Shown one piece after another: positions 1-64,000 of a stretch of DNA of 64,000 nt. Location: NCBI GenBank assembly GCA_018238155.1, contig JABCTZ010000006.1:71321-135320 (forward strand), given 5' to 3'. The translations under genes were made by a program, and so were the position numbers. The notes under the pieces are model-generated. The model did no database searches. It was not told the DNA's origin and worked only from the letters and a program-made list of their open reading frames with translations. Position 1 is the stretch's first letter; every line of letters starts with the position of its first letter. This DNA comes from Candidatus Heimdallarchaeota archaeon. GTDB lineage: Archaea; Asgardarchaeota; Heimdallarchaeia; JABLTI01.

Positions 1-574
<574 letters not shown>

Positions 575-760
575 CTGAAATCGATTGGTCCTCAGGACCG
601 ATCTTTAGTCAATGGAGGGGAAATTAAAACCCCTTTCCAAGTTTGACTTAATAGTAGGCGTTTGTATAACCTCATGAAATCTTTTAACTGCAGAAATAAT
701 GGGTAGAAAAAAAGCGAGTTGTGTTAGTTAGGTTGTTTTTTTATTATTTTTTGATTATGA
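575..760 (+). other. 16S rRNA 3' trailer with two hairpins
   Basis: Immediately after the mature 16S end there is a 9-bp perfect hairpin (583-591 with 595-603, loop TCA), then a GGGG/CCCC hairpin (617-620 with 630-633). After them comes the first copy of the dispersed repeat, ending in a T-run at about 733-745 that could end the transcript. Such stems are expected to take part in pre-rRNA processing; that role is inferred. The same two hairpins recur, diverged but still paired, at 3860-3908. No gene is seen between 575 and 911. Confidence 0.7.
669..736 (+). repeat. Trailer-derived direct repeat, copy A (native 16S trailer)
   Basis: This copy begins CCTCATGAAATCTTTTA and ends TTGTGTTAGTTAGGTTG plus a T-run. 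It lies directly in the 16S trailer and is taken as the parental form of the eight-copy family in the first 10 kb. The middle part differs from the other copies, while the head and tail match well. Confidence 0.75.
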
Positions 761-911
761 AATAAGTGTTTAAGCGTCATTTTTCTTGTATAGTTTTCTT
801 CTCTGTAGAACCTTTACTTTTTTTCTTAGAAAATTTGACTATTAGAGCAACAATAGCTATTTCTAGAATAACCGGGATTCCATACAGAACAAAATAGAAA
901 ATAAATGGGCG

Positions 912-2498
912 TTACTGTTGTTTTTTTCGAACTATGAATATGATGATAGGTATGGCAATAATTGGTATGATAACTAAAAAGGCGAAATAGCCATAATTAC
1001 ATTTGGTAGGTTCAACAAAAATCGCAATAAAAGCATCAGTATGATCATCAAAGAAATTACGATAAGCATTCTGCGTAGTAGGGAAATCACTTGAAAAAGT
1101 TTCACCCATTACATAGCAGCTCCCATCACTTGCAACTACAACACTGTTAGCGCGATCAGTAGAATCCCCTCCTAGGTAAGTACTCCAGAGAAGTGAACCT
1201 GATGGAGAGAACTTTGTAATAAAAGCATCATAAATACCTCCTATAGTACTATTAGAAACCCCCTGTACTGGGAAATCACTCGAGGAAGTCTCACCAACGA
1301 CATAACAGCTGCCCTCACTGGAGACCGCAATATCGTAACCGCGATCCCCGTTATACCCTCCTAAGAACGTACTCCAGAGTAAGGATCCATCCTTTGCCAG
1401 TTTGACCACGAAAGCATCTCCATACCCGCCGTAGGTGTGATTATGAGCATTGTACATGGGAAAATCAGGTGACCCTGTGAATCCAGTAATATAGCAGCTG
1501 TCATCCCCTGCTACAGCAATACCAAGAGATTCATCCCAATAACTCCCACCAAAGAAGGTACTCCAGAGTAAAGAACCATTGGAAGAGAATTTGGTTATAA
1601 AAGCATCCCAATCACCAGCATAAGTGTCGTTAATTGCATTTTGTGTGGGAAAATCAATAGAAGAAGTAAATCCTGTGATATAACAGCTGTCATCACTTGC
1701 TACTGCAACACCATACCCCCATTCTCCACCATACTCCCCGCCCAAATAAGTACTCCAGAGGAGAGCGCCATCAGGGTCGAATTTGGATACAAAGACATCA
1801 TAACCGCCATTAAAAGTGCTATCGAATGCCTTTTCAGTGGGAAAGTTCGTGGAGGACGTCAATCCAGTAACGTAGCAACTACCATCACTTGTTGTTGCAA
1901 CACTACACCCCATATCCCAGTTATTTCCTCCTAGGTAGGTACTCCATAACAGCGTACCATTCGTAGCAAATTTACTAAGAAAGGCATCGGTAGCAACATC
2001 AATCCCACTTCCATAGGTAGCATTGTAAGCATTCTTTGTAGGAAAGTTTGAAGACCAGGTTGTCCCCGTGACGTAGCAGCTGCCATCACTCGCCACAGCT
2101 ATATCATAACCATAATCTAAATCACTCCCACCAAGATAGGTACTCCAGCATAGAGTGCCATTTGCAACAAATTTGGACACAAAAGCATCTCTACCACTAT
2201 ATGTATAATTGAATGCATGAAGCGTTGGGAAATCTCCTGAGGAGGTTCTTCCTGTGAGATAATAGCTGCCATCCCCTGCCACAGCAATGCCTAAGCCAAT
2301 TTCTGTTCCACCCATGCCACCAAAAAAAGTACAATACTCAAGAGTAGGCATAGCAGTCTTCTGGACTCCAAATTGAGTCTGAGGAAGTATTTGTCCACTG
2401 CCAAAATTCAGAGGAAAGGGGGAACAAAGTATTAGAATTACAAAAAGAACGCCACAAGTCCCTCTCTTGCTTCGATTGGAAAATATCGTTTGACCCAT
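912..2498 (-). CDS. SBBP-repeat beta-propeller surface protein, membrane-anchored
   Basis: The 528-residue protein has an N-terminal signal peptide (hydrophobic stretch near residues 17-33) and seven to eight copies of a ~62-residue repeat. Each repeat reads roughly LLWSTYLGG...G.DIAVASDGSCYVTG.T.S.DFPT, the SBBP (seven-bladed beta-propeller) signature. A C-terminal hydrophobic segment followed by RKKQQ anchors it with the propeller outside the cell. A conserved Cys in every repeat (GSCYV) is notable. The function is unknown; in archaea such proteins are usually surface or adhesion proteins (family knowledge). It lies between repeat copies A and B with the peptidase gene upstream on the same strand, separated by a terminator-like hairpin. 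Confidence 0.85.
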   Translation of the reverse strand: MGQTIFSNRSKRGTCGVLFVILILCSPFPLNFGSGQILPQTQFGVQKTAMPTLEYCTFFGGMGGTEIGLGIAVAGDGSYYLTGRTSSGDFPTLHAFNYTYSGRDAFVSKFVANGTLCWSTYLGGSDLDYGYDIAVASDGSCYVTGTTWSSNFPTKNAYNATYGSGIDVATDAFLSKFATNGTLLWSTYLGGNNWDMGCSVATTSDGSCYVTGLTSSTNFPTEKAFDSTFNGGYDVFVSKFDPDGALLWSTYLGGEYGGEWGYGVAVASDDSCYITGFTSSIDFPTQNAINDTYAGDWDAFITKFSSNGSLLWSTFFGGSYWDESLGIAVAGDDSCYITGFTGSPDFPMYNAHNHTYGGYGDAFVVKLAKDGSLLWSTFLGGYNGDRGYDIAVSSEGSCYVVGETSSSDFPVQGVSNSTIGGIYDAFITKFSPSGSLLWSTYLGGDSTDRANSVVVASDGSCYVMGETFSSDFPTTQNAYRNFFDDHTDAFIAIFVEPTKCNYGYFAFLVIIPIIAIPIIIFIVRKKQQ

Positions 2499-2660
2499 GA
2501 TAATAACCTATTGCCTTTCTTTTAAGTATTTTATTCTTATAAGATTTATCTTGATTGAGGTTTCCTTAAATCTTTTAGTTTTGCACTTTCTTTACAATAT
2601 AACCTCAAATAAAAGAAGAAACAATGAAATAAATAATGCTGTTATTTTTAAAAAAAAGAT

Positions 2661-2681
2661 AATCCTAGCAAAGCTAGGATT
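2661..2681 (-). terminator. Terminator-like hairpin after the caspase-like gene
   Basis: AATCCTAGC and GCTAGGATT form a perfect 9-bp stem with an AAA loop. On the minus strand the stem is followed by a run of eight T. It lies 16 bp past the stop of the peptidase gene at 2697, so it probably separates that gene from the SBBP gene downstream. Confidence 0.6.
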
Positions 2682-2696
2682 TAGTGGTAATAGTTT

Positions 2697-3695
2697 CTAG
2701 GAACCAAACCATACATAACTTGAACAGTCACTTATTTGAGCATATTGAGCATCACCAACTGGGGATTGACAGCAACTGTAAGCAATAGAGAAACCTTCGG
2801 TACCTGTAGCATCCAAATTTAATTGTGCAAAGAAGTAATGTGAAAACCTTCCTTCATAAGGTAATGGTTGGAAAAGATAAGAAAAAGCAGGTTTGTCTTC
2901 ACGACTGCAGGATATAGCAAGATAAGGTGAAGCTGCAAAATCGTCCACCCAGTAACCTGAATAACATGATTCCACAACAATACATTTACGGGGAGCCTCT
3001 AATGCATCCATATAGTCTCGAAAATCATCTGAAGAGATTGTGGTTCCATCTTCTTTAAATTTTGTATGGGAGTGTTCATTATATGTACTTCCATGACCAA
3101 AGATATAAACAAATACGGTGTCTTGATCATGTTCGTATGCATCTATAGTATTCATTGCACTTTGAACAGCTGCAACATTTGCGCAGTCTTCGTATTTATA
3201 GAATTTCGTATATCCATGTTCTTCTTCTAGAATATCAATATAATCGTCAATATCTTGTTCCCGTCCTGCATCACTTGCCCAGAAGAAGACACCTATCTTT
3301 TCTGTTATTCCGACAAGTTCAAAATCATTTGTTCCTCCACCATAGACCGTTTCCATACCAGAATTGAAACGAGTTTTGGTTGCAGTCAAATAATAAGGTG
3401 CATTACCATTCAATGTGACACTAAATCCATAATCACCTGAACTGTCTGTTGTATCTATTCCTAGTATATTGAAATAGCAGTCAGCGAGCATTATTGTAGC
3501 ACTACTTAATGGATTATCAGAACAATCTTCTACTGTTCCCTCAAAGGTTGATACACCTTGTACACTCATTATTCTCATTGTTGAAAAAAGGAGAATGATG
3601 ATAGCTAAGAAACTTATTTTTTTTTCAAATATTTCATTATTAAATCTCCAATTCAAAAGTGTTGAAAGAAAATTCTTTAACAGAGCTATTACCAA
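2697..3695 (-). CDS. Secreted caspase/legumain-like (clan CD) cysteine peptidase
   Basis: The 332-residue protein has an N-terminal hydrophobic segment (about residues 28-45) that looks like a signal or anchor. A carboxypeptidase-regulatory-like beta domain follows (about 50-125, beginning FEGTVEDCSDNPLSSA), then a caspase-fold region from about 130. The expected clan CD pair is visible: His in VYIFGHGS and Cys in IVVESCYSGYW, each after a hydrophobic beta strand, as in C13/C14-type peptidases. The longest frame starts at TTG 3695; a nearer start cannot be excluded. The substrate is unknown. Its place beside the SBBP protein, inside the repeat-bounded block, suggests joint transfer or joint surface function (inference). 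Confidence 0.75.
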   Translation of the reverse strand: MVIALLKNFLSTLLNWRFNNEIFEKKISFLAIIILLFSTMRIMSVQGVSTFEGTVEDCSDNPLSSATIMLADCYFNILGIDTTDSSGDYGFSVTLNGNAPYYLTATKTRFNSGMETVYGGGTNDFELVGITEKIGVFFWASDAGREQDIDDYIDILEEEHGYTKFYKYEDCANVAAVQSAMNTIDAYEHDQDTVFVYIFGHGSTYNEHSHTKFKEDGTTISSDDFRDYMDALEAPRKCIVVESCYSGYWVDDFAASPYLAISCSREDKPAFSYLFQPLPYEGRFSHYFFAQLNLDATGTEGFSIAYSCCQSPVGDAQYAQISDCSSYVWFGS

Positions 3696-4032
3696 TGGTG
3701 TGTAATAAAGTTACCTACATAGTATACGTTATCTTTTCTCTTTGTGAAATTTCCAGTAAGAATTCAAAAGCTTAAAGAATTGTGAGAAAAGGAATTTTTC
3801 ACTCAAATTAAAACATTGATTTACTACTAACCTGCGGCTGGATCACCTCCTCTGAAATCGATTGGCCCTCAAGGCTAATCTCTGGTCCATGGAGGGAAAT
3901 TTAACCCCTTTACATGTTTGACCTTAATTGTAGGGTTTGTTCAACCTCATGAAATCTTTTGTCATGCAAGAAAAAATATTTTTGTGCGAATCTTTATAGT
4001 TTATATCTAGCTCTTATATAATAGGTGAATAT
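3696..4032. other. Intergenic region holding 16S 3'-end duplicate and promoter
   Basis: This stretch has no gene. It holds the partial 16S duplicate and repeat copy B (3829-4005). A TATA-like AT-rich stretch (ATATAATAG, about 4015-4023) lies just before the antitoxin gene at 4033. Confidence 0.6.
3829..4005 (+). repeat. Partial duplicate of 16S 3' end plus trailer; repeat copy B
   Basis: From 3829 the sequence is identical to the last 26 nt of the 16S gene (from AACCTGCGG through the anti-Shine-Dalgarno CACCTCCT) and to the next ~11 nt. It then continues as a diverged copy of the trailer. Both trailer hairpins are kept (3860-3867 with 3873-3880; GGG at 3894-3896 with CCC at 3905-3907). In the first stem one T-A pair of the native copy is replaced by C-G, a compensated double change. 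The copy ends in the CCTCATGAAATCTTTT motif (from about 3944) and a weak tail. No 16S sequence precedes it. Confidence 0.9.
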
Positions 4033-4227
4033 ATGAATTCAATTAACTTGAAAGTAGATGAACCAATAGTTATCCTTTCTTTGGCTGATTATGAAGCTTT
4101 AATAGAATCACTTGAAATTTTAACTGAAGATTCCAAGATATTAGAAGAGATTACAAAAGCAAGAAAGGAGATTGTTACTGGTCAAGGCGTGCCTCTCAAG
4201 GAATTTCTCAAGGAATTGAAGTCATGA
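4033..4227 (+). CDS. Antitoxin of a type II pair, Phd/YefM-like
   Basis: The 64-residue acidic protein has an N-terminal beta/helix part (residues 1-25, with IVILSLADYEALIES) typical of Phd/YefM-like antitoxins, and a charged helical tail that would cap a RelE-type toxin. The start is ATG 4033. Its stop overlaps the toxin start in an ATGA arrangement, the usual translational coupling of such pairs. It lies between repeat copies B and C. The partner toxin frame is interrupted, so this antitoxin may be an orphan. Family assignment rests on length, pattern and partner. Confidence 0.75.
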   Translation: MNSINLKVDEPIVILSLADYEALIESLEILTEDSKILEEITKARKEIVTGQGVPLKEFLKELKS

Positions 4228-4481
4228 TCTATGATATAATATTGGCACCTCAACCACAAAAATTTCTTAAAAACATGAAAAATAAATGAATATTTCTTCA
4301 AATTGAAGTTGCTTTCACAAGTATATCTTTAGATCCTAAAAAAGGCAAACAATTAGTAGGTGCTCTAAAGGGATTGTGGAGTTGGCGTGTAAGTTCTTAT
4401 CGAATTTTATATGAAATTCAAGAGCAGAAAGTAATTGTATATGTACTTCGTATTTCACATCGGAAAAAAGTCTATGAGTAA
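4224..4481 (+). pseudogene. RelE/ParE-like toxin interrupted by an in-frame TGA
   Basis: The frame starts at ATG 4224, overlapping the antitoxin stop, and would encode about 85 residues. A TGA at 4287-4289 (codon 22) breaks it. The downstream part is clearly RelE/ParE-like: LDPKKGKQLVGALKGLWSWR, then VSSYRILYEIQ and VLRISHRKKVYE, including the C-terminal Arg, His and Tyr typical of the fold. A CGA-to-TGA change would explain the break. It is either a dead toxin or a read error; the rest of the frame is intact, so the loss is recent. Confidence 0.8.
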
Positions 4482-4530
4482 TTTTTAGTCTGAATTTTCA
4501 TATCTTTGTGTAGGTTATTGTACTCTTTGA

Positions 4531-4585
4531 TTATCTTTTACCATTCAAGGAGCGAAATTTTATTGTGCGAGTTAGGTTCGTTGTT
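4531..4585 (+). repeat. Trailer-derived direct repeat, copy C
   Basis: It reads ATCTTTTACCATTCAAGGAGCG, split by short AT bases from TTATTGTGCGAGTTAGGTTCG. It separates the Phd/RelE block from the first DUF433/DUF5615 block. Same orientation as all other copies. Confidence 0.8.
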
Positions 4586-4706
4586 TTTAGATAAAGTTTT
4601 AACCTTTTTTTAAGAAGTTTTTACTTTGCACGTGAGTTGATTTCTTATAAGTTGAAAGGTATTATTTAATAGTTTAACTTCTATATAGTATAAAAGAGGA
4701 ATTCGT

Positions 4707-4958
4707 ATGAGTAAATTTGAACGAATTGTCCGTGATCCTGAGATTTGTGGAGGACAACCAACCATAAAAGGCACTCGAGTTCTAGTTCTCGATATTCTTG
4801 ATTGGGTTAAAGAAGGACTATCTTTCGATGAAATTTTGGAGAGCTTCCCCAGTATTACTCGAGAGGATATCCAAGAAATAATTGCATATGCAAAGGATAT
4901 GATTGCAGGTGAGGTTGTCATTTATGGTTCTAAGAAAAGCGAAGTTTCTATTGGATGA
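4707..4958 (+). CDS. DUF433 antitoxin-like protein
   Basis: The 83-residue protein shows the DUF433 pattern: FERIVRDPEICGGQPTIKGT near the N-terminus, then a helix-turn-helix-like segment (SFDEILESFPSITREDIQEI). The start is ATG 4707 with an AGAGGA site seven bases upstream. DUF433 proteins are the usual partners of DUF5615 PIN-like proteins and are regarded as antitoxins (family knowledge). It overlaps the DUF5615 gene by 35 bp, so the two are probably translated together. A second pair of the same type lies in mirror orientation at 5363-5983. Confidence 0.88.
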   Translation: MSKFERIVRDPEICGGQPTIKGTRVLVLDILDWVKEGLSFDEILESFPSITREDIQEIIAYAKDMIAGEVVIYGSKKSEVSIG

Positions 4959-5283
4959 GAACATTCCTATAAAGCTTGAACAATTATTCACTTCTCTTGA
5001 GTTATCTTGTGTTTCAATTCGGGATGTGAAGTGGTTTGGCATTAAAAATAGAAAATTATCTGAAAGAGTCAAAAAGAGCTCCTATATTCTAATTACTCGT
5101 GATAAAGATTTCACGTTTCTCTGGAACAAATATGAAGTCCAAGTTATTTATTTAGCTATTGACCCTCCACTTCTATCTTCTTTTCTTCAACCTCTTCAGA
5201 ATTTACTTCTAAATTGGCACTATAACCTAGACAAACCTTTTCTTATAATTTTGACTAAGGATACAATTCGTTTAAGACAATGA
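4924..5283 (+). CDS. DUF5615 PIN-like toxin
   Basis: The ~119-residue protein begins MVLRKAKFLLDENIP, with the LLDENIP motif that marks DUF5615 PIN-like proteins. An acidic site appears again in LITRDKDF (residues ~62-69), giving the Asp cluster expected of a metal-dependent RNase. The start at ATG 4924 is preferred over upstream in-frame starts because it places the motif at the usual distance. It overlaps the DUF433 gene. The active-site acids look intact. Nuclease activity is inferred from the family. Confidence 0.85.
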   Translation: MVLRKAKFLLDENIPIKLEQLFTSLELSCVSIRDVKWFGIKNRKLSERVKKSSYILITRDKDFTFLWNKYEVQVIYLAIDPPLLSSFLQPLQNLLLNWHYNLDKPFLIILTKDTIRLRQ

Positions 5284-5297
5284 TTTGTATTAACACT

Positions 5298-5353
5298 CTG
5301 AAATCTTTTACCAAGTAAGGAGCAAAAAAAGTATTATTGTGCGAGTTCGGTTA
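5298..5353 (+). repeat. Trailer-derived direct repeat, copy D
   Basis: It reads CTGAAATCTTTTACCAAGTA, then AGGAGC, an A-run and TATTGTGCGAGTTCGGTTAG. It lies between two convergent DUF433/DUF5615 modules. Confidence 0.85.
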
Positions 5354-5362
5354 GATAATCAT

Positions 5363-5728
5363 TTAATCTTTAGGTCTTATTCGAATTGCTTTGGTTGTAA
5401 TAATAACTAATTTGCCTTGATATCTAGGTTCTTTTAAGTCTCTAAGCATAAGGCTTCTATGCAATAGTTGATTTGTTGCTTCAGGATGTGGTGATAGCAC
5501 TTGCAGAATAATTGTTAATGGAGGTTTTTCTTTCGTGTTATGATATATTTCTCCGAATCTTCTATCATGTGTAATCAACGGAGTAGAATTTTCTGTTGCA
5601 TAATCATATATTTCCTCATCAGTTATACTTGATTTCAAAATCTCATCAATTTCTAATACTATGAATTTATTTTTTCTCAAAATTTTCTTCGTTGATTCTG
5701 ATAAGCATTCATCAACAATTACTCTCAT
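5363..5728 (-). CDS. DUF5615 PIN-like toxin (mirror pair)
   Basis: The 121-residue protein begins MRVIVDECLSES, the VDE/C form of the DUF5615 N-terminal motif. It carries LITHDRRFGEIYH near residues 50-62, which supplies the second acidic site. The start is ATG 5728, with a GAGAGGGG site just upstream, 15 bp after the DUF433 gene's stop. It is convergent with the other DUF5615 gene across repeat D. The two proteins differ in most positions, so this is not a recent duplication. Confidence 0.85.
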   Translation of the reverse strand: MRVIVDECLSESTKKILRKNKFIVLEIDEILKSSITDEEIYDYATENSTPLITHDRRFGEIYHNTKEKPPLTIILQVLSPHPEATNQLLHRSLMLRDLKEPRYQGKLVIITTKAIRIRPKD

Positions 5729-5743
5729 TGCCCCTCTCCTCTC

Positions 5744-5983
5744 TTACTCTACTATTGGGATAATTTCATCTTCTGGGTGATTAATGAGGTGAATTGAATA
5801 TTCAAGTGTTGCTCGTATATCCTCTTCTGTTAATTTTGGATATTCTTTGATTATCTGCTCAAAAGACGCTCCGTCTTTTAGCATCTGTAAGATAATGTAA
5901 ATTGGTATTCTAGTATTTCTAATGACAGGTTTGCCACCTAGAATCTTGGGGTTTACTTCTATACGATTTATTATTGGATTCAT
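5744..5983 (-). CDS. DUF433 antitoxin-like protein (mirror pair)
   Basis: The 79-residue protein carries the family pattern INRIEVNPKILGGKPVIRNT, followed by IPIYIILQMLKDGASFEQI and a C-terminal acidic tail. It starts at ATG 5983 and is followed 15 bp later by its DUF5615 partner. The order antitoxin-toxin is the same as in the plus-strand pair. It lies between repeat copies D and E. Confidence 0.9.
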   Translation of the reverse strand: MNPIINRIEVNPKILGGKPVIRNTRIPIYIILQMLKDGASFEQIIKEYPKLTEEDIRATLEYSIHLINHPEDEIIPIVE

Positions 5984-6078
5984 TTCTTCTCACAATTATA
6001 TTTATCTGGCTGACTAATAAAGTTTTTTTGGATTTCTAACAAATTTTTCCATAATAGGAATTTGTTTACACAAAACAT

Positions 6079-6134
6079 CTTGAAATCTTTTACCAAGCAA
6101 GAAGTGAAAAATAGTTTTGTACGAGTTAGGTTGT
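6079..6134 (+). repeat. Trailer-derived direct repeat, copy E
   Basis: It reads CTTGAAATCTTTTACCAAGC, AAGAAGTGAAAAATAG and TTTTGTACGAGTTAGGTTG. It separates the mirror DUF433/DUF5615 block from the HicAB block. Confidence 0.85.
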
Positions 6135-6272
6135 TCTACTTTTATTTGACTCTAATTTTTTTGATTTAGATTTTAAAAAGAATGAAACAAGAAATAAGAA
6201 TTTCAAAATATCTTAAGATAGTGGATTTTACATTAAAAAAACCGTTTTGGTAACTAATTTTCTGTATTGTTT

Positions 6273-6515
6273 TTACTGAAGCATTTCGATGAGTTTATCT
6301 TTCGAGATATTGTTCCAAATTGCTACCTTCGTTAAAATATCGTTTAGAGTTCCTTTTGCAATCTCTTTATGTGTAACAATAGTAATATGATGTTCTCCTG
6401 CTTCCCCTTTCTTTGTTAGTCTTATATGACTTCCTTTTTGTCTTACTACCCGATAATCTAGTTTATTCAGTAGCTTTAGTAGTTTCTTTCCACTAACTAC
6501 TGGAAGCTTTGGCAA
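6273..6515 (-). CDS. hicA: HicA mRNA interferase toxin
   Basis: The ~80-residue protein has the double-stranded-RNA-binding-like HicA fold pattern: KLPVVSGKKLLKLLNKLDY, then VVRQKGSHIRL with the catalytic His, then HITIVTHKEIAKGTLNDIL. A GAGGTG site six to seven bases before TTG 6515 decides this start over the TTG five codons upstream. It overlaps the HicB gene by 23 bp. HicA cleaves mRNA when free of HicB (family knowledge). No key residue is missing, so the toxin should be active. Confidence 0.92.
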   Translation of the reverse strand: MPKLPVVSGKKLLKLLNKLDYRVVRQKGSHIRLTKKGEAGEHHITIVTHKEIAKGTLNDILTKVAIWNNISKDKLIEMLQ

Positions 6516-6720
6516 TTGCTTGCACCTCAAATTCAGACAAAGTTAAAATTCTTATCGTTTCTGTTTGCAATTCTTCCTCAAAGTGCACCTCAACGGCTTC
6601 TTCAATATTCTTTCGTAATTCATCTAAGGTTTTCCCTTGAGTAAAAATATCTGCATCCATTCCTCTTGCACACCAATTTCCCTCTTCATCTTGATATATT
6701 TCTAATTTTATTAGACGCAT
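6493..6720 (-). CDS. hicB: HicB antitoxin
   Basis: The ~75-residue protein shows the HicB partial RNase H-like fold: LEIYQDEEGNWCARGMDADI, then FTQGKTLDELRKNIEEAVE. An AGGTGA site directly before ATG 6720 favours this start over the GTG three codons upstream. It lacks the extra DNA-binding domain found in longer HicB proteins. The order hicB-hicA is used in many such pairs. It lies between repeat copies E and F. Confidence 0.9.
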   Translation of the reverse strand: MRLIKLEIYQDEEGNWCARGMDADIFTQGKTLDELRKNIEEAVEVHFEEELQTETIRILTLSEFEVQAIAKASSS

Positions 6721-6794
6721 TAATTTCACCTAATTATATCTTCTTTTTCTTTAATTATAAACTCATTTATTATTGATTATATTTAAAACTCATT

Positions 6795-6891
6795 CTCTTT
6801 TCATGTTCGATCTAAAAGTAGGATTTGTTTAACCTCATGAAATCTTTTACCAAGCAAGGAGCGAATAAATTATTGTGCTAGTTAGGTCAGT
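6795..6891 (+). repeat. Trailer-derived direct repeat, copy F (long form)
   Basis: This is the best-preserved long copy outside the rRNA trailer. It includes TTCATGTTCGATCTAAAAGT, then AGGATTTGTTTAACCTCATG, AAATCTTTTACCAAGCAAGG and TTGTGCTAGTTAGGTCAG. The first part matches the native trailer (CCAAGTTTGACTTAATAGTA), which ties the short copies to the 16S trailer. Confidence 0.88.
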
Positions 6892-6935
6892 TGTTATTAT
6901 TTTTACTATTTTTCGTTTATCTTAATTGTAAATGG

Positions 6936-8171
6936 TCACTCAGATTTTTTCAGTTGTTTTTTTGTTCTTATCCTAATAGCAGCAATTACTTTTAGGACAA
7001 TAACAATTAGAATGATAGAAATAACCGCTATTACTGATACAATTGTAATTATCATTTTAGTTTCAAAGGTTAGAGGAATTACCATTGGAAATAATCTTTT
7101 AATTCTCTCAGGATTTGTAACATCATAGATAAAAAGGAACCAAGAATAATAAAAAGTCGTAGCAATCCAATCTTCCGTAATTATTATACAAATGTTGTTT
7201 ATCATGACTATTTTTTTATACTCTAACTTCAAACGGTCTTCCATTGAATGTTTATCGAGTTCAATAATATGTTCAAGATTTGTTTTATCTAATGTTAGTA
7301 TTTCCCTTTCAGTTACTAGATAAACAATATTTTCAGATACATGAGCTGATTTTGCATTTTCTAATGTATAATTAGCTATACAATTCAATCTATTATCATT
7401 TAGTATTTCATAAATCTTCAATCCCATATTATCGCAAGCATTTAGCTGATCATCCGACAATGAAATGCTGTTTAGATTGTCGAATTCATATTCAACTACA
7501 AAATCTAATTGAAGAGCACTATTTACTTCATAGATAGCTAAATTTTGCTCTCCGGTTATTACGAAAACTCTTTCCTCATCCATTATTACATCATTAAAGG
7601 AAAAGTTTCTCGTTGTATTACCAATTAAGTTCCAGTTGTTAAAATCTGTTAAATCATATGTGAGCATTAATTTACTTCCATAATCGTTAGAACCAAAAAT
7701 GAATAATTCATCATTGATTATAATCAATTTTAGTATTTCCAAATCTATTGTTGTAAGTATATTCACCAATGTAGCGTTTATTTCACAATTAACTATCCCA
7801 ATGAAATTATCATAGTGTCTTGCACTGAATAATATCTTATCATTGTATCTTGTTATATACCGTGCTAAACTGAGATTTGCATTTTTTTCTTGATAGATTA
7901 CTTGCGCTTTCGCTGGTCTACTTATATCGATTATCTGAAAACCTGCTGAGCTTGTTGAATAGATTAAATCTTCATATACTACAAAATCAAAACTACAATG
8001 CATCACTGTATTGATCGTATAAAATTTGTCGATACAGACTTTCTTATTGATTGATGTATTTCCACTAATATATTGTGGATTTTTGATGTTATTATAGTCT
8101 ATGGACGTTCCAATGATAACTGTAATGATCATTGAAATTCGTACTAATTTAAAAAAATCGTTTCCTCTCAT
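6936..8171 (-). CDS. Membrane-anchored LVIVD-type repeat protein
   Basis: About 410 residues from ATG 8171, which gives a signal peptide directly at the N-terminus (hydrophobic segment VRISMIITVIIG). A TTG at 8216 would add 15 charged residues. The body has repeats ending in YDLTDFNNW, IIDISRPAKAQVI and IYDVTNPERIK, the LVIVD-like pattern of beta-propellers. A C-terminal transmembrane segment (MIITIVSVIAVISIILIVIV) is followed by a basic tail. It is paralogous to the broken gene at 8269-9584 with similar upstream sequence. Function unknown; probably extracellular. Confidence 0.75.
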   Translation of the reverse strand: MRGNDFFKLVRISMIITVIIGTSIDYNNIKNPQYISGNTSINKKVCIDKFYTINTVMHCSFDFVVYEDLIYSTSSAGFQIIDISRPAKAQVIYQEKNANLSLARYITRYNDKILFSARHYDNFIGIVNCEINATLVNILTTIDLEILKLIIINDELFIFGSNDYGSKLMLTYDLTDFNNWNLIGNTTRNFSFNDVIMDEERVFVITGEQNLAIYEVNSALQLDFVVEYEFDNLNSISLSDDQLNACDNMGLKIYEILNDNRLNCIANYTLENAKSAHVSENIVYLVTEREILTLDKTNLEHIIELDKHSMEDRLKLEYKKIVMINNICIIITEDWIATTFYYSWFLFIYDVTNPERIKRLFPMVIPLTFETKMIITIVSVIAVISIILIVIVLKVIAAIRIRTKKQLKKSE

Positions 8172-8223
8172 AATGCATCCCGCTTTTCCATTCTCTTGTA
8201 TTTCTTTCCTTTTCAAATTGATA

Positions 8224-8262
8224 AAATTTTTTGTAATGAGCGTGTGCGAGTTAGATTAGTTC
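8224..8262 (+). repeat. Trailer-derived direct repeat, copy G (tail only)
   Basis: AAAATTTTTTGTAATGAGCG is followed by TGTGCGAGTTAGATTAG. Only the tail half matches the family. It lies between the start of one LVIVD-like gene and the end of the next. Confidence 0.65.
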
Positions 8263-8268
8263 ATTTTT

Positions 8269-9584
8269 TTATTCTTCTTTATATTTCAATTCAGGTTTAT
8301 TTTTCAGTTTTATTTTTTTAGATTTCTTCAACTTCCTCACAGAAAAGATAGACATAATTATAACAATAATCAAAATAAATGGACTTGCAATACCCATTAT
8401 TGGAAGAATTAAATAGTGAAATATGAGTGGTAATTTTATTATTGGAAATTGTAGTTTAATTCTATTCTTATTTTCTATATCAAAGATAAAAAGATCGGTT
8501 TGTGTGTCAGGGGCACCTGTCATGTAATCCTCTGTCATAACTAAAACATAGTTTTTGTACAAGAAAATTTTCTTAAAATCTAGTTCTACTATATCCTTTA
8601 GCCTATATTTACTTCTGCATTTAATTTCATCATTTTCTACTTCTAAAAGTACTAAATTCTTTGAGTTTATGATGCAAATAATATCATCCTTAACAGCAAT
8701 TGACTTTGGTTGAGCTATATCATAACTTGCAATTTTTTCCGGATTATAAGGATCGTCATTATTGAACACTTGAATTTGGTTACTTTTTAATGCATACAGA
8801 AAGTTATCCTGAAAACTTATTCTGGTATATTCTTCTTCAAATTCTTTTACTTTTACTGGTGCACTTACATTGCTGAAATCGTAGACCAACAATTTGTTGT
8901 CAATAGTACTATGATATAGAAAATTATTATGGAATTTATAATCTAGGATATCATCATATTTATAATACGGTGGATATTGATTCCCAATCACAATTTCTGA
9001 AATATTGTGACAACCAATTAAGATTGGATTATAGATATCACTAATATTGTATATTTCACATTGAGGGACTTCATATCTTGAACCAAACAAAAAGAGATTG
9101 TTCTTTTTTTGCTCTAAACGGTGAACAAAGCTTAAATTTGTACCAATTATTTTATTAAAGTATTGATCTTTTCATTTTCAATAAATCCAATTACACTTTG
9201 ATTAACATTATAATTTCCATCCATTGCCATGAACGTAATACTGCCATTATTGTAAAATGAGAAAATATATTCATAATCAAAATATCTTACCCATTTTAAT
9301 TCTTTCCATCTTTGTAATTGGGAGATATTTCTTACAAATATTGAACTTGATGAGAAGCTAACGAGAACTAAATCATTTACGCATGTAATATCATTGCACA
9401 TCTTTAACATATGATTAATACTCAGTGGATTATTATTGAAATAATTTAAACTTTCAGTTTTAGCATTGTTTTTCTCAGTATTCATATTTGAGTAATGATT
9501 CCGTAAATCATTCATTTGAACTAAAATTATGATTATAAAAAAAAAGGTATAAATAATCCTCTTCCTACAATTCTTTAATCCCAT
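8269..9584 (-). pseudogene. LVIVD-type repeat protein broken by a frameshift
   Basis: Two frames (9147-9584 and 8269-9090) together make one protein like the neighbour at 6936-8171. The first carries the signal peptide (IIYTFFFIIIILVQMND) and ends with INTLIK at 9147. The second frame reads on through the gap without a stop (DQYFNKIIGTNLSFVHRLEQ, then KKNNLFLFGSRYEV), so a one-base shift near 9147-9180 explains the break. The C-terminal part keeps YNISDIYNPILI and FDFSN-like repeat ends, a transmembrane segment and a basic tail. It could also be an assembly error. Confidence 0.75.
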
Positions 9585-9623
9585 TTTTCCACTCTCTTGT
9601 ATTTATTTACTCTTCAAATTAAT

Positions 9624-9667
9624 AAAATTTCTTGTAATAAGAATATGCGAGTTAGGTTTGTTTTTTT
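9624..9667 (+). repeat. Trailer-derived direct repeat, copy H (tail only)
   Basis: AAAATTTCTTGTAATAAGAA is followed by TATGCGAGTTAGGTTTG and a T-run. It is closest to copy G. It is the last copy; none is seen elsewhere in the window. Confidence 0.7.
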
Positions 9668-9755
9668 CTTTTTTTGTTTTTCGTTCGAGTTTTCCTATTA
9701 TTTTCAACCCAAGAACTATACTTAATATTATTATGATAAAAATAATCCTCGATTT
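9652..9755 (-). pseudogene. C-terminal remnant of a third LVIVD-type membrane protein
   Basis: A 33-residue open stretch encodes a hydrophobic segment (IIFIIIILSIVLGLKIIG) and a basic tail (KLERKTKKEKKQT), then TAA inside repeat H. A stop lies just upstream at 9756-9758. Position and composition match the C-terminal anchors of the two genes before it, so it looks like the stump of a deleted third copy. Confidence 0.5.
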
Positions 9756-11293: not shown

Positions 11294-12319
11294 TTAAGGT
11301 GTAATCACCGTTCTGAATTCTGCAGTAAACTTTCTAAGACGATGTTGTACTTCATTAATAGCACCTGCTTCTAGTGGAACTGTTTTTGTTACCACATTAG
11401 TTAAGTCAAGTTTTCCTTTTTCTGCTAATTCAAGTAAGAAAGGTATCTCAGATAATAGGTGATCAGAACATCCAATGATTTCTTTTTCTCTACATATTGC
11501 CTCATAAGAATCGATATTGAATGGTTGTTTTGTAATTCCGACTAATCCCAATCTCCCAAATCGAGCCAATGATTTAATTCCTTGTTCCATTGTTAGTTGA
11601 AGTCCAATTAATTCTAATGCGACATCCACACCATCTCCGAGAGTTAGCTCCATTATTTTCTCCACAGGATCATTTTCTTTGGCGTTGATAGGTATCGCTC
11701 CTAGTTTTTCTGCATAAAGCAATTTTTTCTTATCAATATCTACAGCGTAAATCTCTCGAGCACCAAAAACTTTTGCTAACTGCAATGCAGAAATCCCCAA
11801 TCCTCCTAGACCAAAGATTGCTATGTTTTCTCCCGGTTGAAATCTTGTTTTCCTTAGTGCATGAAGCGAAGTTGCTGAAGAACACATCATCACTGAAGCA
11901 TGTTCAAATGAAACCCCATCTGGTAGCTTGTATATACCTCGAGTGGGTACAGCAATATATTCTGCGTATCCACCATCAACATCTTTCCCTATCATTTTAC
12001 CCTTGACACAAAACTGTTCTGTACCTTGAATACAGTATTTACACTTACCACATGTAATCATATAATTAACACAAATACGGTCTCCAATTTGAAAATCAGT
12101 TACATTTTCGCCAATTTTTTCAATTTCCCCTGCAACTTCATGCCCTAAAGTTATTGGTAAATATCCCACAGGAGAAACCCCCGCTCTATAATGAACATCC
12201 GAATGGCAAATTCCTGCTGCTTTTATTCGAATTAGAACTTCATCTGTCTTTGGTTCCGGTTTTGGAATTTCTCTTTCCTCTAAATCTTTACCAATTTCAA
12301 TTAATTGAATAGTTTTCAT
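11294..12319 (-). CDS. Zinc-dependent alcohol dehydrogenase (MDR family)
   Basis: The 341-residue protein is full length for a medium-chain dehydrogenase. Catalytic zinc ligands are in GICHSDVH and GHEVAGEI. The structural zinc lobe is CGKCKYCIQGTEQFC with four Cys. The nucleotide-binding motif GLGGLG is followed by an Asp (VDIDKKKL) that favours NAD over NADP. It oxidises alcohols or reduces aldehydes; the real substrate is unknown. It stands alone, divergent from the large activase gene, with a TATA-like ATATAAAATA upstream. Confidence 0.93.
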   Translation of the reverse strand: MKTIQLIEIGKDLEEREIPKPEPKTDEVLIRIKAAGICHSDVHYRAGVSPVGYLPITLGHEVAGEIEKIGENVTDFQIGDRICVNYMITCGKCKYCIQGTEQFCVKGKMIGKDVDGGYAEYIAVPTRGIYKLPDGVSFEHASVMMCSSATSLHALRKTRFQPGENIAIFGLGGLGISALQLAKVFGAREIYAVDIDKKKLLYAEKLGAIPINAKENDPVEKIMELTLGDGVDVALELIGLQLTMEQGIKSLARFGRLGLVGITKQPFNIDSYEAICREKEIIGCSDHLLSEIPFLLELAEKGKLDLTNVVTKTVPLEAGAINEVQHRLRKFTAEFRTVITP

Positions 12320-62714: not shown

Positions 62715-64000
62715 AGGTTCCGACACGCAAACGCCATCTGGGGGATGGATTGGCTCGGACGCCGATGAAGGACGTGGCTAGCTGCGATAAGCGCGGGGTA
62801 GCTGCAGGCAAGCATAGAACCCGTGATTTCCTAATGGGAACTCCTAATGCGAACCAATAAGTCGCATTACTCCGTAAGGAGGGGGAACGCACCGGACGGA
62901 AACATCCAAGTAGGTGCAGGAAAAGAAATCAACTGAGATGCCCAGAAGTAACGGCGAGTGAAATGGGCAAAGGCCAAACTGAATCCCCATACGCAAGTAT
63001 TGGGAAATGTAGTGTTACGGACTCTCTATTGAGCTCTGCGATGTGAAGCTGAATATCCTGGAAAGTTTAACCAAAGAGGGTGATAGTCCCGTAAGCGTAA
63101 GCATCCCAGAGTGTGAGAGTATCCTGAATAGCGGGGGTTGGAAATCCCTCGTGAATGGGGCACAACGAGCTCCAAGCCTAAATACGTTCCGAGACCGATA
63201 GCGCAATAGTAACGTGAGTGAAAGCTGAAAAGTAACCCGGAAGGGTAGTGAAAAGTGCCTGAAACCAGATGGTTATAGACGTTTGTGGCCCGAAAGGTAA
63301 GATCCTCCATGAAGAGAATGCTGGCGACAGCAAGATCGTTTGGAGGGGACCGGGGTCACAAGATCCGTCTAGAAACACGGGCCAGGGAGTTCATACTTGT
63401 GGCAAGCTTAAGTGATGTCAAAACCACGCAAGCGTAGCGAAAGCGACATGCCCGCAGTTTACAAGGGGCGCCGTCTGAAAGGGCGGGAAGTCACAGGTTT
63501 GAGACCCGAAACCGGACGATCTACCCCTGAGCAGGCTGAAGCCTAGGGAAACCTGGGTGGAGGGCCGAGCAAGTATTGACGTGCAATTCATGTTTGTTGA
63601 CTTGGGGGTAGGGGCAAAAGACCAATCTAGTCCGGTGATAGCTGGTTCCCAACGAAGTGGACATAGGCCAGCCTGCTCTGAGATGGAGCATTCGGTAGAG
63701 CAATGATTGATGGTTACGGGAAGTAAAATTCTCGCCTGTCAGTCAAACTACGAACGGATGTTTATCGTAGAAGAGTAGAGTCGGGCGTGCGTGCGTAAGG
63801 CACGTGGCCGAAAGGGGAATAACCCAGACTAAGGTTAAGGTCCCTAAATCTCGATTAAATGCTAAAATTGGAAGGACGTCATTGGACTAAGACAGTAAGG
63901 CGGTAGGCTTAGAAACAGCCACCCGCTAAGAAAAACGTAACAGTTTACTTACCGAGTCCTTTGGCTCCGAGAATGGACGGGGCTAAATCGAGTACCGATA
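62715..64000 (+). rRNA. rrl: 23S ribosomal RNA, 5' part
   Basis: The gene runs off the window end; about 1.3 kb is visible. Near the start are CACGCAAACGCCATCTGG and GGATTGGCTCGGACGCCGAT, then GAAGGACGTGGCTAGCTGCG, the archaeal form of the conserved 23S 5' region. Later, AGTAACGGCGAGTGAA and GGGTGAAAAG-type segments follow in the expected order. The exact 5' end is estimated. Open frames on the minus strand here are artefacts. Confidence 0.96.

Follow-up and report, generated by a model that had tools for sequence, protein, structure and literature searches.

The question raised by this locus is how a row of gene blocks behind a 16S rRNA gene came to be divided by copies of that gene's own trailer. 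The locus lies at the start of a window of 64,000 nucleotides from a Candidatus Heimdallarchaeota archaeon (contig JABCTZ010000006.1 of assembly GCA_018238155.1; G000:C1:71321-135320 in our numbering, in which G stands for genomes, C for contigs and L for loci, the g and f codes being genus and family labels internal to this analysis). At its left edge the window cuts into an archaeal 16S gene, whose 3' end is at 574, and the 23S gene starts at 62717; with 62 kb between them the two rRNA genes are therefore unlinked here, and in some genomes of family f4 just an array and a few genes intervene. A preliminary description had reported eight direct copies of a repeat, always between gene blocks and laid out like cassettes, and all eight were recovered, by alignment and with a sequence profile, between 652 and 9679 on the + strand, i.e., in the direction of the rRNA. 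The profile was built from nine sequences (the eight window copies and one from contig C4); its E-values are approximate and the copies in the model match by construction.

The repeat corresponds to the 3' strand of the processing stem formed by the 16S leader and trailer, followed by a T-run. In a fold of the leader with the trailer, the head of the repeat, GTTTGTATAACCTCATGAAATCTTTTAAC, forms the 3' strand of this stem; the tail, GTGCGAGTT, is complementary, as read from the sequence, to AACTCGCGC of the upstream leader, and the T-run comes after it. The proposed origin from the 16S trailer was borne out: copy A is the native trailer of the gene, and copy B starts inside the 16S, carrying from 3829 the last 23 nt of the mature rRNA and then the trailer, with 85% identity to the native copy over 149 nt. 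The division of the repeat into head and tail held well for the tail, which occurs 7 times against 0.43 expected from shuffles, and less well for the head, which gave 7 matches, four of these within the array copies, where 1.7 were expected, and which is mostly missing from copies G and H. Only copies A (z -3.3) and B (z -2.3) pair clearly with the leader, so the other copies need not keep this pairing.

Had the repeat been an ordinary dispersed element or a common terminator, it should have been scattered over the genome. Besides the eight array copies, the profile search of the own genome returned a match at C4:44655, next to a HicB-like gene, and one at C26:44298, the remaining matches being weak; three further significant copies lie beyond the array, two of which flank another gene block on C26. 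With so few copies outside the array, the repeat is neither a dispersed element nor a general terminator. In the C26 block (C26:44298-45869; L227:9304-10869) the two trailer-type repeats resemble the trailers of sister species and surround a 448-aa gene, which adjoins PIN-type toxin and antitoxin-like genes named by inspection of the sequence. Among GTDB records, the same trailer motif was found in Candidatus Heimdallarchaeota MAGs (metagenome-assembled genomes) and in one record labelled Clostridium, and exact-pattern scans of IMG/VR for the trailer found no virus carriers.

Relatives were gathered by a search with the 16S 3' end and by trailer searches, and most of their genomes are incomplete MAGs. 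Variable blocks flanked by trailer copies were found in genera g1 and g4, as well as in one genome each of g5 (G019) and g11 (G039); arrays occur in the same genus as the window (G003, G004, G005, G007) and in family f4 (G013, G020, G028, G030, G032, G041, G045, G047, G048, G055, G058). Every array is built of the trailer of its own lineage, and all of the 58 array copies scored at E<1e-3 lie in the rRNA direction. Trailer-repeat arrays are present in two families of Heimdallarchaeia and possibly in a third, f2, in which G012 has one 32-nt trailer match 5.9 kb downstream of the 16S. In f5 (G022, at least 4 kb behind the 16S) the trailer match is of 15 nt only, and no repeat was found in the 18 kb behind the 16S of G015 (f3) or in the 4 kb of G026 (f6).

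The contents of these arrays change between close relatives, and no fixed block order is kept. G013 and G047 are 99.5% identical in 16S and 97.3% identical over 5 kb of the right flank, and their arrays are unrelated; the array of G046 differs again, its flank being 97.5% identical to that of G013. In G005 and G007, cassettes A and LLM are common to both, with 83% and 88% identity, and stand in a different order, the edges of the matches falling at repeats. The same two genomes are unalignable upstream of one repeat, become identical from its middle (AGTTGGATAAGAAGAGC...) and keep an identity of about 99.5% over some 2.3 kb, which spans a 412-aa gene and reaches into a dehydrogenase gene, where identity goes down to 86.5%; the background at an unlinked locus is about 85%. 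The 2.3-kb tract stems from recent recombination between species and has one of its ends inside the repeat. Moreover, a displaced copy in G030 resembles the native trailer of another species, G041 (95.9% identity over 172 nt), more closely than that of its own genome (90% over 93 nt), and cassette F0 occurs with 96% identity at different positions in G058 and G032, in which the neighbouring sequence is 87-90% identical. Related species having the same type of row with different blocks, the trailer is therefore a site at which genes dock and are swapped. The suggestion of the preliminary description that blocks are gained, lost and reordered by recombination at the repeats agrees with these comparisons: array structure and variability, and one interspecies tract starting inside a repeat, can be read from the aligned genomes, and block exchange by homologous recombination between trailer copies was traced in that one case, which the other cases fit.

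On balance we judge it probable that, in Heimdallarchaeia, the 3' end and trailer of the one 16S gene are a recurrent insertion site, that the resulting copies then exchange blocks by homologous recombination, and that the founding step takes place without a dedicated integrase. Each insertion would leave an intact 16S and trailer in front of the inserted DNA and, behind it, the displaced last 2-28 nt of the 16S with the trailer; repeated insertions, together with block duplication, would give a row of blocks with trailer copies between them, every copy reading the same way as the rRNA. The copies could then act as short homology arms on which host homologous recombination swaps, deletes and imports blocks between species. 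We infer that the founding insertion occurs at the 16S end. Our first choice for this step would be homology-facilitated illegitimate recombination with the strongly conserved 16S as its anchor, preferred because the same model was proposed for displaced arrays in Vibrio (PMC5361080); a 16S anchor on one side and displaced 16S tails on the other are both found. Help with the founding insertions might come from mobile elements with the same point of entry, such as the HeimV2 aloposon. A tRNA gene as the target behind the arrays was rejected, since the scanned array loci contained no tRNA apart from one tRNA-like match near 46 kb in G019.

Several points weigh against this explanation. The left ends of the 19 long copies range from -28 to -2 relative to the mature 16S end (a spread of 27 nt), and no junction carries more than 28 nt of 16S, though purely illegitimate joining sometimes should; 8 of the 19 lie no more than 2 nt from -13, a clustering suggestive of a preferred site. 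A strictly polar growth, with older copies farther out, had to be discarded, as the copies do not become steadily less like the native trailer with distance from the 16S. The detailed dissection covers the single tract of G005 and G007. Finally, the survey that yielded no dedicated recombinase was confined to PF00589 and PF00239, the latter in g4 only, with one serine-recombinase protein query for the other relatives.

An endonuclease or recombinase with a preference for the 16S tail is the main alternative. In an integron-like system, a dedicated recombinase acting in trans would move single blocks and use the trailer repeats as att sites. The blocks are indeed compact, mostly of one or two genes, genes in the rRNA direction often stop 2-12 nt before the next repeat, orientation is constant and the left ends of the long copies are clustered. 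Enzymes are also at hand: two tyrosine recombinases (PF00589) are encoded in the own genome, on contigs C8 and C19, and all f4 genomes sampled carry a serine recombinase of one 250-aa family (e.g., L198). Against the integron integrase model, however, the own recombinases gave 38 bits, with a cut-off of 265 bits, or no match. A tyrosine recombinase in trans was rejected because PF00589 had no match in nine array-bearing g4 genomes (G013, G028, G032, G038, G041, G045, G046, G047, G053); as MAGs are incomplete, such absence is weak evidence for each genome and stronger over the nine. The f4 serine recombinase, used as a protein query, had no match in g1 or in other sampled families and, as g1 bears arrays, was rejected as the common enzyme; among the recombinase families tested, none is shared by all carriers. 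Moreover, a single sequence-specific enzyme cannot act on all arrays, since the trailer sequence is not the same from family to family.

The repeats, too, do not have attC structure. Paired RYYYAAC and GTTRRRY boxes with complementary inner boxes were present in 0 of 8 window copies, 0 of 49 f4 matches and 0 of 29 g1 matches, and the bottom-strand folds of the repeats were no better than those of shuffles (z from -0.9 to +1.9). GTTRRRY is matched by most of the own tails and RYYYAAC by two heads, a likeness that may mislead; with box pairing and folding both failing, an attC-like reading of the repeats was rejected. No IntI integron integrase was found, which the class of clusters of attC sites lacking integron integrases (CALINs) does not require. 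The cassette-like layout without an integron-type recombinase, as first described, was supported, and we regard a dedicated recombinase in trans as unlikely.

Another possibility is that a homing endonuclease cuts the 16S 3' end, and repair from a donor with its own 16S tail inserts the cargo, the cut-off tail staying behind. The left ends near -13 would suit such an enzyme, since this is the position at which several f4 genomes hold a hairpin insert of about 31 nt that could be a small intron, and an rRNA-intron-type enzyme lies beside the 16S in HeimM2 (PMC8813620). Nevertheless, LAGLIDADG_1 was found in few relatives, the g4 genomes having no match beyond one weak one, and an rRNA-intron endonuclease of this family was rejected as too rare. 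Genes for LAGLIDADG_3 are common, many of them in very long intein-like reading frames, and among the matches listed none lies in an array locus. The inserts themselves are putative introns, and we consider this mechanism unlikely. Hairpin inserts of about 30-33 nt were seen at two to three positions in 16S helix 45 or the 3' tail (L021, L027-L032 and L042, i.e., G045, G047, G020, G032, G041, G053, G048 and G012), and possibly represent tiny spliced introns.

It could also be argued that the repeats are static: old duplicated terminators of rRNA type, kept as such, with block variation due to ordinary gene turnover. Repeats do end in T-runs and often follow stop codons, but they include 16S sequence useless for termination, point in the rRNA direction whichever strand the neighbouring genes are on, occur only at the array locus and few other places, and mark recombination edges, so we find this highly improbable. 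That the 16S flanks were misjoined in assembly or binning is scarcely credible. Although MAGs make up most of the genome set, and G004 and G013 have contig breaks at trailers, the same layout was seen in many MAGs independent of one another and also in G019, a single contig of 3.33 Mb, which largely refutes this reading.

In the two MAGs just named, the contigs ending at the 16S trailer are G004:C115/C98 and G013:C38/C23; such breaks are expected if array repeats confuse assembly, and the 16S gene may be lost from Heimdallarchaeia bins as a result. The duplication pattern has a mirror image on the 5' side of the 16S in G004:C115 (L045): a 160-nt copy of the 16S leader (91% identity) stands at 11300-11458, some 9.5 kb upstream of the leader itself and separated from it by an ABC-type operon.

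The features of the window array are collected in Table 1. As to the blocks, Pfam supported the SBBP and peptidase C13 genes, both DUF433/DUF5615 pairs and HicA, which the preliminary description had named; the candidate Phd antitoxin and the 426-aa protein, described as LVIVD-like, had no Pfam match. Given the in-frame stop in the RelE-like frame, the candidate toxin-antitoxin pair of block 2 may be inactive. The genes of blocks 6 and 7, before copies G and H, look like a duplicated pair, and a direct repeat of 104 nt stands at 8177 and 9578 (80% identity). The pair of block 3 is also found in G003 (L109:1021-1517, DNA identity 72.5%), and block 5 is 82.8% identical to G004 L107:11539-12038, there too between repeats.

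Table 1. Features of the trailer array in the window.
Feature	Position	Strand	Evidence
16S rRNA gene, 3' part, array anchor	1..574	+	Rfam RF01959, E 1.4e-156
Copy A, native trailer: processing-stem 3' strand + T-run; repeat core 652-754	575..754	+	Profile match; folds with 16S leader over GTTTGTATAACCTCATGAAATCTTTTAAC part
Block 1: SBBP beta-propeller protein, 528 aa	912..2498	-	Pfam PF06739, E 3.7e-22
Block 1: peptidase C13 (caspase-like) protein, 332 aa	2697..3695	-	Pfam PF01650, E 5e-7; relative in G003 L109
Copy B, displaced last 23 nt of 16S + full trailer; profile match 3928-4016	3829..4016	+	Starts -23 from mature 16S end
Block 2: candidate antitoxin, 64 aa	4033..4227	+	ORF; no Pfam match; Phd-like in preliminary description
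Block 2: RelE-like toxin gene, in-frame stop near codon 22, likely pseudogene	4224..4481	+	Translation
Copy C	4507..4598	+	Profile E 3.4e-15
Block 3: DUF433 antitoxin-like	4707..4958	+	Pfam PF04255, E 2e-24
Block 3: DUF5615 PIN-like protein, stop just before copy D	4924..5283	+	Pfam PF18480, E 2.8e-12
Copy D	5279..5371	+	Profile E 5.6e-19
Block 4: DUF5615	5363..5728	-	Pfam E 3.3e-16
Block 4: DUF433	5744..5983	-	Pfam E 7.5e-24
Copy E	6053..6151	+	Profile E 5e-18
Block 5: HicA toxin	6273..6530	-	Pfam E 2e-13
Block 5: HicB-like antitoxin	6493..6729	-	Weak Pfam match, E 1.6e-3
Copy F, extends left into trailer; profile match 6817-6909	6793..6909	+	Profile E 8.5e-23; nhmmer model positions 75-167
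Block 6: probable surface beta-propeller protein, 426 aa	6936..8216	-	ORF; no Pfam match
Copy G, diverged, head mostly missing	8197..8276	+	Weak profile match, E 2e-4
Block 7: relative of block 6, frameshift-split	8269..9584	-	Translation of three frames
Copy H, last array repeat	9598..9679	+	Profile E 7.5e-8
Conserved right flank: alcohol dehydrogenase-like gene, cluster F12	11294..12319	-	Adjoins array also in G004, G005, G007 (DNA matches)

Toxin-antitoxin pairs, to which a stabilising role had been ascribed, are present in the arrays as one class of cargo beside luciferase-like monooxygenase, aldo-keto reductase, S9 peptidase, propeller and surface proteins, a STAND ATPase and a HEAT-repeat protein. 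The f4 arrays hold many helical-repeat proteins of about 530 aa, with a variable body and a conserved C-terminus, often several in one array (e.g., L098:456-2033). A PADLOC scan of the cargo matched no system beyond a weak match of the HEAT-repeat protein, and no recombinase was found in any of the cargo blocks tested.

If the insertion of blocks behind the 16S and their exchange between trailer copies are as we propose, the Asgard lineage nearest to eukaryotes would have a defined place of entry into the chromosome for foreign and accessory genes, anchored not to a tRNA or an integron but to the most conserved gene that the genome has. Part of the 44-kb HeimV2 region would be explained, breaks of Heimdallarchaeia MAG contigs at the 16S would be predicted, and gene inflow would become measurable from one locus per strain. 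The wider claim, that Heimdallarchaeia possess an integrase-independent cassette system docking at the 16S 3' end and trailer, with a separate origin in each lineage and with import, reordering and exchange of blocks between species, is put forward here only tentatively. The trailer arrays represent a form of cassette and accretion array that is new, being unreported in the open-licence literature searched.

Integron cassette arrays and CALINs have already been described in Asgard archaea (Ghaly et al. 2022, PMC9668308). Like them, the trailer arrays are rows of blocks of mostly one or two genes, variable in content, with toxin-antitoxin cargo and a repeat often right after the stop codon; unlike them, they have a 16S-trailer repeat instead of a folded attC and no integron integrase, their genes lie on either strand and they stand behind the 16S.

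The elements HeimV2 (44 kb) and HeimM2 (8 kb) were reported between the 16S and tRNA-Arg in Ca. Heimdallarchaeum (Wu et al. 2022, PMC8813620), and the rRNA-intron-type homing endonuclease of HeimM2, beside the 16S, was suggested to drive insertion; the term 'direct repeat' does not occur in the main text of that paper. The insertion directly behind the sole 16S gene is common to both cases and, in fact, G019 has such an element between two trailer copies: a virus-like aloposon of 38 kb, with the native trailer on one side and a 97% copy of it on the other. Behind the 16S of G019 there are two giant genes, of 4475 and 5326 aa, and a ParA-like ATPase, recognised by the start of its sequence only; 8 nt past the second giant gene comes a 95-bp trailer copy (97%), followed by a block judged IbrA/IbrB-like from its sequence and, after that, by a 68-bp copy (96%). 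These trailer copies make the HeimV2-type region a compound one. A relic of a HeimV2-like element with an 80% trailer-like stretch was also seen at G019:C1:2399082 (L202). Different from the two elements as described, several units are resolved here, and most arrays consist of small blocks without mobile-element genes; the aloposon hallmarks (twin giant genes, ParA-like ATPase) are absent from the window array.

Integrative elements at the 3' ends of RNA genes usually occupy a tRNA gene and encode their own integrase. The trailer arrays resemble the tandem accretion of such elements in that direct repeats of an RNA-gene 3' end flank the inserted DNA and leave the gene intact, as seen for copy B, for 18 other long copies and for the 95-bp repeat of G019, and they differ in using the 16S instead of the usual tRNA site with an element-encoded integrase; no recombinase was found among the window blocks tested by Pfam. 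A review on archaea (PMC8371274) contains neither '16S' nor 'rRNA' in its text.

The displaced arrays of immunity genes in Vibrio, for which homology-facilitated illegitimate recombination was proposed (Kirchberger et al. 2017, PMC5361080), share with the trailer arrays a conserved anchor, old 3' fragments pushed downstream, growth by succession and a later spread by homologous recombination. By contrast, in the trailer arrays the anchor is an rRNA gene, the cargo is unrelated to the anchor and the junctions are clustered near the end of the 16S.

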